From the NCBI GenBank assembly GCA_005776885.1, contig SXOD01000006.1:1-64000 (forward strand): 64,000 bases of DNA. The letters are read 5' to 3'. The notes beneath the pieces are model-generated. The model ran no database searches. It was not told where the DNA came from and saw only the letters and a list, made by a program, of their open reading frames with translations. A program made the position numbers and the translations under genes. This document shows, piece after piece, positions 57,394 to 63,207 of the stretch (position 1 is the first letter of the stretch; the number at the start of each line of letters is the position of its first letter). Source of the stretch: Planctomycetia bacterium. GTDB taxonomy: Bacteria > Planctomycetota > Phycisphaerae > Phycisphaerales > SM1A02.

Positions 57394-58122
57394 GTGGAAC
57401 CCCAGACCGTTGAGCTTCCCGTGGTTCGGGACTGGGGGGATGTTGTGGCCATCCTCAAGCCCGCTGGCCTGCCATCGGAGGCGAGTGGAAGTTCATCGAC
57501 GGCACTCTCGCTCCTGCGCGCACAGCTGCGATGGCCCGAGGCCCGGCTCCCGCACAGACTCGATGCTCCCACCAGCGGCATCCTGGTGGTTGCGCGAGAT
57601 GCCACGGCGGCCGAGCGCGTCAACGCGGACATTCGGGATCGCGCGTGGCGGAAGTTTTACGTGGCACGGCTTCATGGAGACGCCACGGCCCTTGTCGGCG
57701 TGCTCCGCTGCTACCTCAAGGCCGGGCGCGGTCGGTCGGCCGGACCTCGACACCTGGCGCGTCGCGCCGAGGTGGTGCGGTCAGGTGGTGATCCGTGCAG
57801 CCTCGAAGTCATCGCAGCTGCGCTTGATGGCCGTTGGCAGTCGACCCGGGCGGTGATCGAGCTGCATACCGGCCGGTACCACCAGATTCGCGCGATGTGC
57901 GCGTGGAAGGGTCATCCACTGATCGGCGATGAGCTGTACGGAGGGGAGGCCGGAAAGATGTCCCTCGTCCACGCGGCGCTCTCGCTCCCGATTCCAGGCG
58001 GCGCGGCCAACTCCGCCCGGGACACTGAGGTGGTGTCAGTCCGGGCGGGAACCAATGGCGTCACGGAACGCGACCTTGCGATCATCGCCGATCGATTGAC
58101 CCGCCCCAGCGCCGGCTGGTGA
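57394..58122 (+). CDS. RluA-family RNA pseudouridine synthase (second copy)
   Basis: This 242-residue enzyme has the RluA/TruC pattern: VVAILKPAGLPSEA, catalytic HRLDAPTSGILVVAR (about 53-67, essential aspartate), WRKFYVARLHG and TGRYHQIRAMCAWKGHPLIGDELYGG. There is no S4 domain. The start is uncertain; GTG 57394 gives the family length. The gene converges with the hypothetical at 58082 and overlaps its 3' end by 41 bases. The first copy at 16439 shares motifs but not close sequence. Confidence 0.87.
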   Translation: MEPQTVELPVVRDWGDVVAILKPAGLPSEASGSSSTALSLLRAQLRWPEARLPHRLDAPTSGILVVARDATAAERVNADIRDRAWRKFYVARLHGDATALVGVLRCYLKAGRGRSAGPRHLARRAEVVRSGGDPCSLEVIAAALDGRWQSTRAVIELHTGRYHQIRAMCAWKGHPLIGDELYGGEAGKMSLVHAALSLPIPGGAANSARDTEVVSVRAGTNGVTERDLAIIADRLTRPSAGW

Positions 58123-58771
58123 CGACAGCGCCGGCCGGTGACGGCCATTCGTCCGCATGCACCCAATGCACGGCCCCAAATCGGTTGCTGGCGGCCTGGC
58201 TTGCGGCGCGCTGGAACCGGGTGGCGAACGCATCCTGTCGCCTGGCTTGCACCAGCCCGCGCAGTTCGCCGGGGGTCAGCAGGTCCTTGAAGCCGGCGGT
58301 GTGCTCCAGCAGCGAGAACGAACACCCGGTGACATCCAGGGAGAGTGAGCCCTTCGATGCATTGACCTTGGGCCAGCCGAATCCGCCACCCCCGTAGAGA
58401 CCCGCCTCGCCTTCGCTGAGGACCAGGATTCGGCACACGAAATTGGTGGCCGTTGGATCGATCGGCGTCTTGCCTGGATGTGGCGTCCAGAGCAGGTCAA
58501 GGTGAACGATGACGCCGCTTGGCCGTTCGCCCCCAAGGGTCTCCAGGTCGATGTCACTGAGGATGATCGACGTGTTCGTGTCCCCTTGGCTATAGGCCGC
58601 CACCCGCGTCGGCATTGCCAGGCGCGCGCCAGACTCGCCCCTTGACTGGATCGCGAAGTCTTCGGAGGCCACCCACTGCGTGCAGGAGACGATGCTGGCC
58701 AAGCCAAGCGATGCCGCTCCCATGACGGCCGCCAGGACAGCCAGTCGTCGCGTCGGGTTCATGGGATTCAT
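58082..58771 (-). CDS. Exported hypothetical protein
   Basis: This 229-residue protein has a signal sequence (about 10-28, VLAAVMGAASLGLASIVSC), possibly with a lipid-attachment cysteine at about residue 30. The rest is beta-rich with short loops, for instance NTSIILSDIDLETLGGERPSGVIVHLDLLW and GLYGGGGFGWPKVNASKG, not matching a known family by eye. It is the last gene of the ispA-dxs operon, its ATG overlapping the amidohydrolase-like stop in ATGA. The 3' end overlaps the convergent pseudouridine synthase gene. Confidence 0.65.
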   Translation of the reverse strand: MNPMNPTRRLAVLAAVMGAASLGLASIVSCTQWVASEDFAIQSRGESGARLAMPTRVAAYSQGDTNTSIILSDIDLETLGGERPSGVIVHLDLLWTPHPGKTPIDPTATNFVCRILVLSEGEAGLYGGGGFGWPKVNASKGSLSLDVTGCSFSLLEHTAGFKDLLTPGELRGLVQARRQDAFATRFQRAASQAASNRFGAVHWVHADEWPSPAGAVVTSRRWGGSIDRR

Positions 58772-59676
58772 GAGTGGCCCCTCGGCATGGCGAATCCAAA
58801 GGAACCCGAGAGCGTTGCCGGCGGCGGCGCCACGGCCGAGATGCCCAGGGCCTGGAAGGCATCTCGTTCGACAATGCTCCTGATCGAGGCCCGTGGCAGC
58901 GCGGGCAACTGCACGCTTTGGGCCAGCGCACCGAGGCTATACAGGCTTTCGACGGCCCGCGATGGCGATTCGAAGGGGAAGCCGCTGGCGAAGAGCACTC
59001 GATCGAGTGCCCCCACCGACGCCGCGGTGAGCAGCGAGGTGTAGAGCGGCCAGGGCCGACTCGCCAATCCGTCGGTGGCGAGGAACACCCCCGGATGCTT
59101 GGCCGAGAGCGCCACCGCCTCGTCAATCCAAGGCCACCCCATCTCGCCCACCACCAGCCTCAGCCTCGGGCAGTTGCGGAGGACTTCGTCCCACGCCGCA
59201 GGGCGATCGAACTCAAGCACGGCACTCTGCACGATTGGGCCGGGACGTGAGGCGAACACAGGCACCCCAAGTTCTTCGCATCTCGCGAAAAGCTTGAGCG
59301 CGGCGGAGTGCGTGGGATGGAACTGTTGTGTCGATGGCGACACGCAGACGCCAAGCAGTCCCAGGCTCCGGGCGTGCTCGAACTCGGCCATCGCGCCGGG
59401 GGCCGTGGGGTCGATCCCGCTGGCACCGAGCAATCGGCCGCCGGCGCGCCTGATGGCGTCGGCCAGCACGTCATTGGGGACCGAGGCATGGATGCCCTGC
59501 GCCCGCAGTCCCATGACGAAGGCGCCCCCCAGGGGAGCGATGGCGCGCTGGATCGCATCGGCCGAAGCGTCCAGCGGCCCAGCAACGCCAACACCAAGCC
59601 CACGGACTCGACGCGAAAGTTCCGGGCCGAGCTGTTCCGGGCCGCTCCAGAATCGCACGAGCGCGTCGATGATCAC
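58768..59676 (-). CDS. Amidohydrolase-2-like protein lacking metal ligands
   Basis: This 302-residue protein has the barrel layout of the amidohydrolase-2/TatD-like family: a N-terminal IIDALVRFW, a middle EELGVPVFASRPGP, a later LRLVVGEMGWPWIDEAVALSAKHP and FASGFPFESPSRAVE. In active members these positions carry HxH, H, H and D. Here they read ALV, S, E and G, so the metal site appears lost. Catalysis is unlikely, and a structural or regulatory role is possible. GTG 59676 is 10 bases after the dxs stop, so it belongs to the isoprenoid operon. Confidence 0.7.
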   Translation of the reverse strand: MIIDALVRFWSGPEQLGPELSRRVRGLGVGVAGPLDASADAIQRAIAPLGGAFVMGLRAQGIHASVPNDVLADAIRRAGGRLLGASGIDPTAPGAMAEFEHARSLGLLGVCVSPSTQQFHPTHSAALKLFARCEELGVPVFASRPGPIVQSAVLEFDRPAAWDEVLRNCPRLRLVVGEMGWPWIDEAVALSAKHPGVFLATDGLASRPWPLYTSLLTAASVGALDRVLFASGFPFESPSRAVESLYSLGALAQSVQLPALPRASIRSIVERDAFQALGISAVAPPPATLSGSFGFAMPRGHS

Positions 59677-59686
59677 GGGGCGGAGT

Positions 59687-61618
59687 CTAGCGGTGCTGGG
59701 ACGCGCGGCTCCGTGCGGCGCGTTCGATCGCGGCGACAATGGACGCCAGGTCAAGCCCCGTCTCCGCAAGTTGCTCCGAGCGCGAACCGTGCCCAATCCA
59801 TCGCTCGGGCGCACCAAGCACCGTGATGAGGCGGGTGTCCAGTCCACGTCGATGGGCTTCGGCGAGCACGAGGGAGCCAAATCCACCCGTCGCGCCGTGA
59901 TCCTCGACGGTGATGATCGGGACTTGCCTCAGCAGCAGCGACTCGATGAGCTCGCCGTCGACTGGCTTGGCAAATCGCGCATCCCAGACGGCGACGCTGT
60001 GACGATCCGCGACCTCGCTGGCGGCGTCCATCGCCGTGAGGGCCATCGGCCCCAGCCCCAGCACCGCCACGTCCGGTGCGGGAGAGATGCGGAGGGCTCG
60101 AGCCCGACCCAGTTCGAAGGGCGGGCAGGGCTCGCCGGTGAATCGCGCGTCAACCTTTTCTCGCGGGTACCTGAGCGCACTCAGGCCCTGGTCGTACTCG
60201 GCCATGAACTGCATGGCCGCGGCCAGGCTGGGCTCGTCCATCGCCGCCATGAGGCACGCCTGCGGCAGTGGTGCCAGCAGCGCGATGTCGCAGAAGCCGT
60301 GATGCACCGCTCCATCGCCACCGACGAAGCCGGCGCGATCCAGGAGCAGCCGGACCGCGAGCCCCTGGAGCGAGACTTCCTGGAAGGCCTGGTCGAATGC
60401 GCGCTGCAGGAAGGTGCTGTACACCGCGAAGAAGGGCCTCGAACCGGCCTTGGCCAGGCCAGCCATCATGTCCATCGCGTGGCTCTCGCAAATGCCGGTG
60501 TCCCACGCTCGATCCGGGAATCGATCCAACACCTTCGTCAGGCCGGTGCCATCGGGCATCGCCGCCGTGCAAGCCACAACGCGCGGGTCACGTTCCATGA
60601 GCTTGGCCAGCGCCTCGCCGGCCGCGGCCGTGAATGAGCGTCCGCCGGAGGAGATCTCGACTCGGCACGCCTGGTTGCCAATCCGCTCAAGCGTGAACGC
60701 CGCGGGCGAGTGGAAGCTGGTGGCGTCGGACTCGGCGAAGTCGAAGCCCTTTCCCTTGACGGTCTTGACGTGCAGCAACGCGGGCCGTGGGAGGGAGCGC
60801 AGTTCACCGAGATACTCGGTGAGGACGCGAAGATCATGGCCATCAATCGGCCCCACGGGGACGAGGCCGAAGTGGGAGAACCACGCGTCGTGCGTGAAGA
60901 GCGCCTTCCCGGACTCGCCGATGCGGTGGTAGAGCTCCGTCGCGGCCTCGCCACCGGGAACTTGAGAGGCGAGGTCGCGGGCGGCTCGCTTGAAGTCGCT
61001 GTACGGCCGGGAGATGCGCAGCCGGTCGAAGTACCTCGAGATGGCCCCCTGCGGCGGTGCGATCGACATCCCGTTGTCGTTGAGGATCACCAGGAATTGC
61101 CTGCGCAGCGTCCCGCAGTTGTTCAGCCCTTCCATGGCCACGCCATTGACGATGCTGGCATCACCCACGATGGACACCACACGGCGCCCCGCCTGATTGC
61201 CGGGGGACCACGCCTCGCCGCTCCGCTCGTCCCCGCGCGCGACGCCCACCGCCGTCGAGATCGCGGTTCCGGCATGGCCGACCATGAAGAGGTCGTAGGG
61301 CGACTCGGAAGGGTCCGGGAACCCGGCCATCCCGCCGCGCTGGCGCAAGTTGGGAAGGAGCGCCTGCCGACCGGTCAGCAACTTGTGCGTGTAGCACTGG
61401 TGGCCGACGTCAAACAGCAGCCGGTCGTGGCCAAAGTCGAACACGTAGTGCATCGCCACCGTGAGTTCCACCACACCCAGGTTGGGCGCGAGGTGGCCGC
61501 CGCTGCGGGAGACCTGGTTGCAGATTGCGTCGCGGAGCTCCCCGCACAGGTCAGGCAGGGCAGACAACGGGAGACGCTTGAGGTCGGCAGGGGAGTGAAT
61601 CGAGGGGAGCAGCGCCAT
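59687..61618 (-). CDS. dxs: 1-deoxy-D-xylulose-5-phosphate synthase
   Basis: This 643-residue TPP enzyme starts the MEP isoprenoid pathway from pyruvate and glyceraldehyde 3-phosphate. It has SGGHLAPNLGVVELTVAMHY, DVGHQCYTHKLLTGR, the TPP/Mg motif GDASIVNGVAMEGLNN, HVKTVKGKGF, YSTFLQRAFDQAFQEVSLQ and LDRAGFVGGDGAVHHG, all in order. The length matches the family. It is the second gene of a minus-strand operon, 27 bases after ispA, followed by the degenerate amidohydrolase. Confidence 0.96.
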   Translation of the reverse strand: MALLPSIHSPADLKRLPLSALPDLCGELRDAICNQVSRSGGHLAPNLGVVELTVAMHYVFDFGHDRLLFDVGHQCYTHKLLTGRQALLPNLRQRGGMAGFPDPSESPYDLFMVGHAGTAISTAVGVARGDERSGEAWSPGNQAGRRVVSIVGDASIVNGVAMEGLNNCGTLRRQFLVILNDNGMSIAPPQGAISRYFDRLRISRPYSDFKRAARDLASQVPGGEAATELYHRIGESGKALFTHDAWFSHFGLVPVGPIDGHDLRVLTEYLGELRSLPRPALLHVKTVKGKGFDFAESDATSFHSPAAFTLERIGNQACRVEISSGGRSFTAAAGEALAKLMERDPRVVACTAAMPDGTGLTKVLDRFPDRAWDTGICESHAMDMMAGLAKAGSRPFFAVYSTFLQRAFDQAFQEVSLQGLAVRLLLDRAGFVGGDGAVHHGFCDIALLAPLPQACLMAAMDEPSLAAAMQFMAEYDQGLSALRYPREKVDARFTGEPCPPFELGRARALRISPAPDVAVLGLGPMALTAMDAASEVADRHSVAVWDARFAKPVDGELIESLLLRQVPIITVEDHGATGGFGSLVLAEAHRRGLDTRLITVLGAPERWIGHGSRSEQLAETGLDLASIVAAIERAARSRASQHR

Positions 61619-61645: not shown

Positions 61646-62515
61646 TCAGTGGCGTCGACCCGCCAGTTCCGACGTCATCCGGCGCAAGTTGGCCGCGCCA
61701 TCGCCAAGGCCATGGAGTGCCGCGTTCGCTTCACGGGCGAGTCGATCGACGTGCGCGACGGCACCCGCCACGCCAAGTGTCCCCACCCAGGTCGACTTGC
61801 CGGCGGCCTGGTCCTTGCCCGTGGCCTTCCCCGCCCGTGAGGCCGGCTGCGTGGCATCGATCCAGTCGTCCACGATCTGGAACATGAGGCCAATGGCCGT
61901 TCCCCACGATGCGATCGCCTTGGCGTCTTCCGGCCCGACATCAGCGCAGACGGCGCCCATCCGCGCCGAGGCGGCGATGAGCGCACCGGTCTTTCGGGAA
62001 TGGATCTGCTCGACGAGCGCGGCAGGATCGATCGAGTCATCGCGCGCCTCGGGCAAGGTATCCATCACCTGCCCGTCGATCATCGCCAACGACGCCCCAA
62101 CCACCTCGGCGCAGAGTGCGGGCCCGTGGTGGGGGTCGTCCATGGCCACGGCGAGTGCGGCCGCGAAGAGGGCGTCGCCCGCCAGGATCGCCAGGGACTC
62201 GGGAAACGCCCGGTGCAGCGTGGGCCGGCCGCGTCGGACGTCGTCGTTGTCCAGTGCGGGCAGGTCATCGTGTGCCAGGGAGAACGCGTGCACGAGTTCG
62301 ACGGCACATGCGCCGTCAAGCGCCCGGCTGACGTCTCCCCCGCACGCCTCGCAGCACCGCATGGTGATGAGCGGCCTGATGCGCTTGCCACCACCCAGCA
62401 CGGCATAGCGGCAGGCCTCCGCCAGGCGGGGGACGGCGATGTGTGAATCGATGGCACGTGCCAGTCGCGACTCGACCATCGCACGGAGTGCATCGTCGGT
62501 GTGCGGCGAAGGCAT
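61646..62515 (-). CDS. ispA: Polyprenyl (farnesyl/geranylgeranyl-type) diphosphate synthase
   Basis: This 289-residue enzyme condenses isoprenyl diphosphates. It has GGGKRIRPLITMRCCEACGG, the first Asp-rich motif DDLPALDNDDVRRGRPTLH (about 86-104), KTGALIAASARMGA and the second DDWID within GLMFQIVDDWID. The residue before the first motif suggests a C15-C20 product, but chain length is not fixed by sequence alone. ATG 62515 starts at PSPHTDDALR. It leads the operon with dxs, supplying the next steps of the pathway. It is divergent from the ExbB-like gene. Confidence 0.92.
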   Translation of the reverse strand: MPSPHTDDALRAMVESRLARAIDSHIAVPRLAEACRYAVLGGGKRIRPLITMRCCEACGGDVSRALDGACAVELVHAFSLAHDDLPALDNDDVRRGRPTLHRAFPESLAILAGDALFAAALAVAMDDPHHGPALCAEVVGASLAMIDGQVMDTLPEARDDSIDPAALVEQIHSRKTGALIAASARMGAVCADVGPEDAKAIASWGTAIGLMFQIVDDWIDATQPASRAGKATGKDQAAGKSTWVGTLGVAGAVAHVDRLAREANAALHGLGDGAANLRRMTSELAGRRH

Positions 62516-62568
62516 GTGGGCGAGTGTAGGTCGGGCGATCGCCCGCACGACGGCTAGCATTGAAGCCG

Positions 62569-63207
62569 ATGGAACCAGGTTCACTGAGCGATCTCATGTC
62601 ACGCGGCGGGCCCGTCATGTGGCCGCTGCTGATCCTCAGCATCGTGGCCCTCGGCTTGCTGCTTGAGCGCGGCATCTTCTGGGGGCGGATCGATTCCCCT
62701 TCCGCTCGGAAACGGTTTGATGCGCTGGTCGATGCTTCGCGCCATGGTGACCGTGCGCTGGCCGGCGGGCTGGCCAGGGCCGACGGCGGACCCTACGGCT
62801 ACGTGGCGCAGCGGATGCTGGATCATGGTTCGGATGATGCCACGGCGATCAGTGCGGTCGAGACGGCCCGTGCCCCGATGGAGCGCGGCCTCTCCATGCT
62901 CTCCTTCATCGTGACGGCGGCGCCGCTCCTTGGCATCCTGGGAACCGTCCTGGGAATCATCTCGAGTTTCGAGTTGCTTGGGGACACCACGGGCCTGCGC
63001 GATCCACGCGAAGTGAGCGGCGGCATCGCGGAGGCGCTGGTCAGCACCGCGGCGGGCCTTGTGGTGTCGATCTTCGCGCTCTTCCCCCTCATGCTGTTCC
63101 GGTCCCGTTGCGATCGAGGGCTGGGCCGGCTTGAGGCGATCATCGCCGCTGTCCGAACCGGGTTGGTCGCGGCGTCCGCGCCACCCGACAGGGAGCGTCT
63201 CACGTGA
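62569..63207 (+). CDS. ExbB/TolQ/MotA-family proton channel protein
   Basis: This 212-residue protein has three membrane helices (about 17-34, 112-135 and 160-185). The conserved core is LLGILGTVLGIISSFELLG and GGIAEALVSTAAGLVVSIFALFPLML, typical of ExbB/TolQ. Such proteins use the proton gradient to power envelope work with an ExbD/TolR partner, but no ExbD-like gene is seen. An FHA-GAF gene follows with a GTGA overlap. ATG 62569 lies 53 bases from the divergent ispA start. Confidence 0.88.
   Translation: MEPGSLSDLMSRGGPVMWPLLILSIVALGLLLERGIFWGRIDSPSARKRFDALVDASRHGDRALAGGLARADGGPYGYVAQRMLDHGSDDATAISAVETARAPMERGLSMLSFIVTAAPLLGILGTVLGIISSFELLGDTTGLRDPREVSGGIAEALVSTAAGLVVSIFALFPLMLFRSRCDRGLGRLEAIIAAVRTGLVAASAPPDRERLT

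Follow-up and report, generated by a model that had tools for sequence, protein, structure and literature searches.

An amidohydrolase-fold gene that lies directly behind dxs and whose metal ligands appear to be replaced raises the question of whether its product still works as an enzyme and, if it does not, what it is kept for. The gene occupies positions 58768–59676 (minus strand) of the window, the whole 64,000-nucleotide stretch of a Planctomycetia bacterium contig (SXOD01000006.1) analyzed here, and its reading frame runs from a GTG start codon at 59676 to a stop codon at 58768–58770, encoding 302 amino acids. An initial annotation described the product as a conserved, catalytically dead protein in an isoprenoid operon and as a potential binding or regulatory subunit. 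The immediate arrangement is as described there: the dxs reading frame ends at 59687, leaving a gap of 10 bases, and the next gene starts with an ATG at 58771, inside the end of the amidohydrolase gene, so that the two overlap by 4 bases.

Fold and metal-site positions

The window protein is assigned by Pfam to Amidohydro_2 (PF04909, E 8e-26), a profile matched by 61 of 61 members, and no NCBIfam model matches it. The structure prediction that the initial annotation had proposed yields a confident TIM barrel (AlphaFold with 61 homologues; mean pLDDT 92.7, pTM 0.89), and the protein begins directly with this barrel, with no signal sequence seen. All PDB fold matches of the model are amidohydrolase-2 barrels, the best being 3irs (BB4693; Z 24.7, rmsd 3.3 over 261 residues), with the ACMSD-group decarboxylases next. 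Fold, length, profile match, and the positions of the barrel segments are common to the window protein and the Amidohydro_2/ACMSD-like decarboxylases and hydratases (PF04909; 2dvt, 2hbv), whereas the HxH motif, the His and Asp ligands, and the second His of these enzymes are all replaced.

In P. fluorescens ACMSD zinc is held by His9, His11, His177, and Asp294, and His228 activates water (PMC11650718); the residues at these positions in the window protein are L6, R8, S143, G232, and E178, respectively, so that none of the four metal ligands is left and the catalytic His is changed as well. The β1 motif HxH (or ExH) is missing and reads L6-V7-R8, with the codons for the first and second His positions at 59659–59661 and 59653–59655. 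At the end of β5 the His ligand is replaced by S143 (59248–59250), at the end of β6 the catalytic or ligand His by E178 (59143–59145), and at the end of β8 the Asp by G232 (58981–58983), all on the minus strand; the codons were confirmed by eye in the nucleotide sequence, and the model places the ligand sites at the C-terminal ends of strands 1, 5, 6, and 8. The changes of His to Ser, His to Glu, and Asp to Gly agree with those first annotated. The loss of both His residues of HxH also stands, but the replacement given for it, A-L-V, corresponds to residues 5–7 and is one position off. The register of these assignments is set by alignment to relatives that keep all five residues, namely two from the same order (L069, 37% identical, and L071, 36%), two from the class (L115 and L122), and most of ten relatives outside the class. 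Independently, S143 and E178 result from profile alignment with an ACMSD-like protein that is encoded in the same genome and has an intact site.

The closest solved structure, that of the uncharacterized protein BB4693 of Bordetella bronchiseptica (3irs, 3k4w; profile E 3e-19), seemingly lacks the β5 His and the β8 Asp as well, having Thr and Ala at these positions in the aligned part; in contrast to the window protein it keeps the β6 His, and its HxH region lies outside the alignment. Given 3irs, ligand loss may be wider than the class. A literature search for this amidohydrolase family or for BB4693 returned no paper.

As judged from these alignments, the window protein is a homologue of an enzyme family with its catalytic motifs missing, as in pseudoenzymes in general (PMC10211241), and it presumably binds no metal and has ceased to be a canonical hydrolase or decarboxylase.

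Distribution and graded loss of the ligands

In the order, 171 of 301 genomes searched contain the protein; across the class, a profile search located it in 238 of 298, nearly always as a single copy. The matches belong to Phycisphaerales and related planctomycetes; in a sample of the phylum the protein is present in only 28 of 294 genomes, 17 of these 28 being in the same class. Among 36 sequences of the window's own family the site is complete in no member: 25 have lost all five residues, one remains in 7, two in 3, and three in 1. On the question that the initial annotation had posed, ligand loss is in this sense conserved to some degree in all 36 of 36 homologues. That annotation had also held that close homologues with intact ligands would speak against it, and here the outcome is divided, as two relatives from another family of the same order retain all five residues at 36–37% identity, but no member of the window's family is complete.

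Across families the loss is graded. The site is as empty in families f2, f3, and f4 as in the window's family; in f6 from none to four of the residues are left, and in f5 the site is intact in 2 of 7 members. Intact members occur in f5, f8, and f25 and in relatives outside the class. Outside the order there is family-specific loss of single ligands: f11 has Gln at the β6 position, most f9 members have Ser at the second His of HxH, f13 has Leu at the β5 position, and f19 and f21 have Tyr at the first His of HxH. A sequencing, assembly, or frameshift artefact was considered and rejected on the grounds that the same trend is found in the 36-sequence family and in 80 named genomes.

In a gene tree built without the ligand columns, a quick tree with 29 weakly supported branches, nearly all families with at least two rows are recovered as clades (the exceptions being f15 and f51), which indicates vertical descent. 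Since the gene tree follows the bacterial families, the pattern reads as repeated ligand losses in one vertically inherited gene. When branches with support under 95 are collapsed, 6–9 changes per site, a lower bound, are still required. The intact outgroup suggests that the direction of change is loss. Taken together, many lineages of one class may well have converted a single-copy enzyme into a pseudoenzyme independently of each other, with intact orthologues persisting in other lineages.

Genomic neighbors

Upstream of the amidohydrolase gene the window carries dxs (59687–61618, minus strand) and, upstream of it, an ispA-like polyprenyl synthase gene (61646–62584, minus strand). Of 101 loci, 4 share this upstream pair (the window, L031, L032, and L043), and these belong to one small clade; the loci of this survey were picked from the strongest matches, and its counts describe that sample. 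The conserved linkage to dxs and the isoprenoid operon that had initially been proposed is not borne out, and from the gene order the dxs adjacency is best read as a local accident. Most of the remaining family has menG as the neighbor, usually divergent and sometimes in line. In eight loci (L033, L034, L035, L036, L038, L041, L072, and L076) menG is immediately upstream of the amidohydrolase gene and in the same orientation. That a quinone or isoprenoid gene adjoins the amidohydrolase in most of the family may be coincidence. In f6 the neighbor is gcvH in 11 of 14 loci, and other families have other housekeeping genes. An isoprenoid role through dxs as a general function was rejected because the linkage is limited to one clade.

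The stable neighbor lies downstream. The gene that overlaps the amidohydrolase by 4 bases (58082–58771, minus strand) encodes a predicted lipoprotein with the lipobox SIVSC and Cys30, and a lipoprotein gene of this family occupies the downstream position in 60 of 61 loci of the order and in 77 of 80 named genomes, with adjacency in 8 of 25 loci of the class outside the order. In 34 of 60 pairs a start codon exists that would give the 4-base overlap. A simple lipobox pattern is found in 44 of 60 partners, the remaining ones needing better start assignment. The partner has no Pfam family and no PDB sequence match, and the lipoprotein family, with a motif around TPxDxxATN...YGGAGF, gives a profile match in 171 of 298 genomes of the class. 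A confident β-barrel is predicted for the partner (pLDDT 90.7), and a PDB fold search with this model gave nothing above Z 7.9. That best match is to the LpqH-like β-barrel lipoproteins (4zjm), which share with the partner a lipobox and an all-β barrel, but a Z under 8 is not evidence of kinship.

The association has exceptions, which count against a tie between the two genes: the lipoprotein gene is unlinked in f9 and f19, and it also occurs in genomes without the amidohydrolase. In four loci (lipoprotein reading frame starts or low ends at L239:2280, L240:2007, L241:2349, and L242:2490) the flanking menG or gcvH and the lipoprotein gene are in place with no amidohydrolase gene between them. 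Given the rest of that family's loci, deletion is the likely direction, and the amidohydrolase gene was likely deleted from these four. In genomes without a match, no diverged amidohydrolase was found upstream of the lipoprotein gene, even with a broad profile.

Candidate roles of the retained protein

The preferred explanation, held with a probability of about 0.5, is that the window protein has become a metal-free pseudoenzyme whose retained, non-catalytic role is tied to the lipoprotein, and that it is not a subunit of DXS. On this view the Amidohydro_2 (ACMSD-like) family is inherited vertically as a single copy in one planctomycete class, and its ancestral protein would have had a second, non-catalytic job serving the same envelope-related process as the lipoprotein. 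It may have bound a protein partner or a small ligand, perhaps as a cytoplasmic oligomeric scaffold. Where this job alone was selected, the metal site would have been free to drift. One review raises the idea that loss is tolerated where the ancestor also had a binding role (PMC10211241). The retained job would then be binding or scaffolding linked to the process of the lipoprotein, a regulatory role being possible as well. Direct contact between the two proteins is improbable, because the lipoprotein should be exported, whereas the amidohydrolase has the barrel at its very start and no visible signal sequence. Five residues away from the ligands, D163, E164, R167, R262, and E270, are conserved class-wide in intact and decayed members and are not conserved in intact relatives outside the class, a pattern that fits a class-specific non-catalytic role. 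Against such a role, the lipoprotein persists in a number of relatives from which the amidohydrolase gene is absent, indicating that they can do without the role. Nor does the barrel mouth stand out significantly in conservation.

A metal-independent enzyme is the main rival; its pocket would have been rebuilt for a metal-free reaction with kept residues such as D4, H120, H123, and R8. This is a tentative possibility, and residue retention in the window's family argues for it: D4 and S231 are invariant, Gly occupies the β8 position in 35 of 36 members and Arg the second HxH position in 25 of 36, and H120 and H123 are kept in 33 and 31 of 36, respectively, with H120 also present in most other members. 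The lactonase LigI, a member of the amidohydrolase superfamily, works without metal, but it keeps the very ligand residues that are lost here. Positions 6, 143, and 178 moreover vary freely in the window's family (entropy percentiles 0.85, 0.72, and 0.64), which is unusual for a rebuilt active site, and the barrel mouth shows no significant excess of conservation (entropy at the strand C-terminal ends compared with other positions; permutation p 0.14), so a kept pocket is not claimed. Also in favor of such chemistry, ACMSD catalyzes a tautomerization that survives loss of the catalytic His228 (PMC11650718). The retention of H120 and H123, which resemble an HPxH-type loop, could alternatively reflect an intact site that has been misaligned or a metal held by shifted residues. 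This is improbable, since the alignment is anchored on both sides of every site, the sites fall at the ends of β1, β5, β6, and β8 of the model, and H120 is present also in members with a canonical site; misalignment as such was rejected, since intact members align without gaps and profile alignment with the ACMSD-like enzyme from this genome gives the same positions for two sites.

Slow erosion is the second rival: an ancestral enzyme would have decayed in place and finally been deleted, with no selected role beyond, at most, translational coupling of the lipoprotein. The graded series from intact to empty site to absent gene is consistent with it, as are the four loci with only the flanking genes and the lipoprotein left and the absence of the protein from several genera of the window's family. 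It is nevertheless doubtful, because the reading frames are open, without internal frameshifts or stops among the order matches listed; 12 residues are invariant and about 40 nearly invariant in the 36 sequences; and 78 of 98 sampled family members carry the gene, among the matches listed. Between the window protein and that of L031, dN is 0.108, dS 1.69, and dN/dS ∼0.06 (dS being saturated in several other pairs). The gene is, judging from its sequence variation, under purifying selection in its carriers and not broken, and the initial description of a conserved protein without canonical catalytic residues holds for the family and class alignments and for this selection estimate. The further proposal, a subunit with a regulatory or binding function for DXS or the isoprenoid pathway, draws on the operon-like ispA-dxs order in the window and its clade and on the adjoining quinone gene menG in most of the remaining family. 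It is very unlikely, given that dxs lies upstream in so few loci, that gcvH and other housekeeping genes take its place elsewhere, and that menG is mostly divergent; DXS is presumably not the target of the protein.

If a non-catalytic role is indeed what is retained, that role would be older than the loss of the catalytic site, and the intact, partial, empty, and missing states of the gene would form a natural series for locating it. Pseudoenzymes are often read as products of duplication, with one copy free to decay, and paralogue-driven pseudoenzymes are described as arising by gene duplication (PMC6549527); here, in contrast, the same metal centre is lost repeatedly in a nearly always single-copy gene, and no duplication was detected. 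Enzyme and pseudoenzyme would therefore be orthologues in the same genomic slot, and swapping them would make the question of what the pseudoenzyme is kept for directly testable. Annotation by Amidohydro_2 alone would label as hydrolases hundreds of planctomycete proteins unable to use the known mechanism. The unnamed, widespread lipoprotein family is a conserved neighbor worth study.

No close paralogue was found in the window's own genome (84.6% complete), in which the one other clear Amidohydro_2 protein is a distant ACMSD-like one; a heteromer with a live close paralogue was rejected on this basis. The ACMSD-like protein (L231; contig C38:18261-19244) has an intact site, and its gene adjoins a kynureninase-like gene in a bacterial kynurenine-pathway locus. 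Among intact relatives outside the class (L138–L145 and others), an enolase-superfamily gene of the muconate or mandelate type adjoins in 5 of 10 loci, which suggests a catabolic ancestral enzyme.
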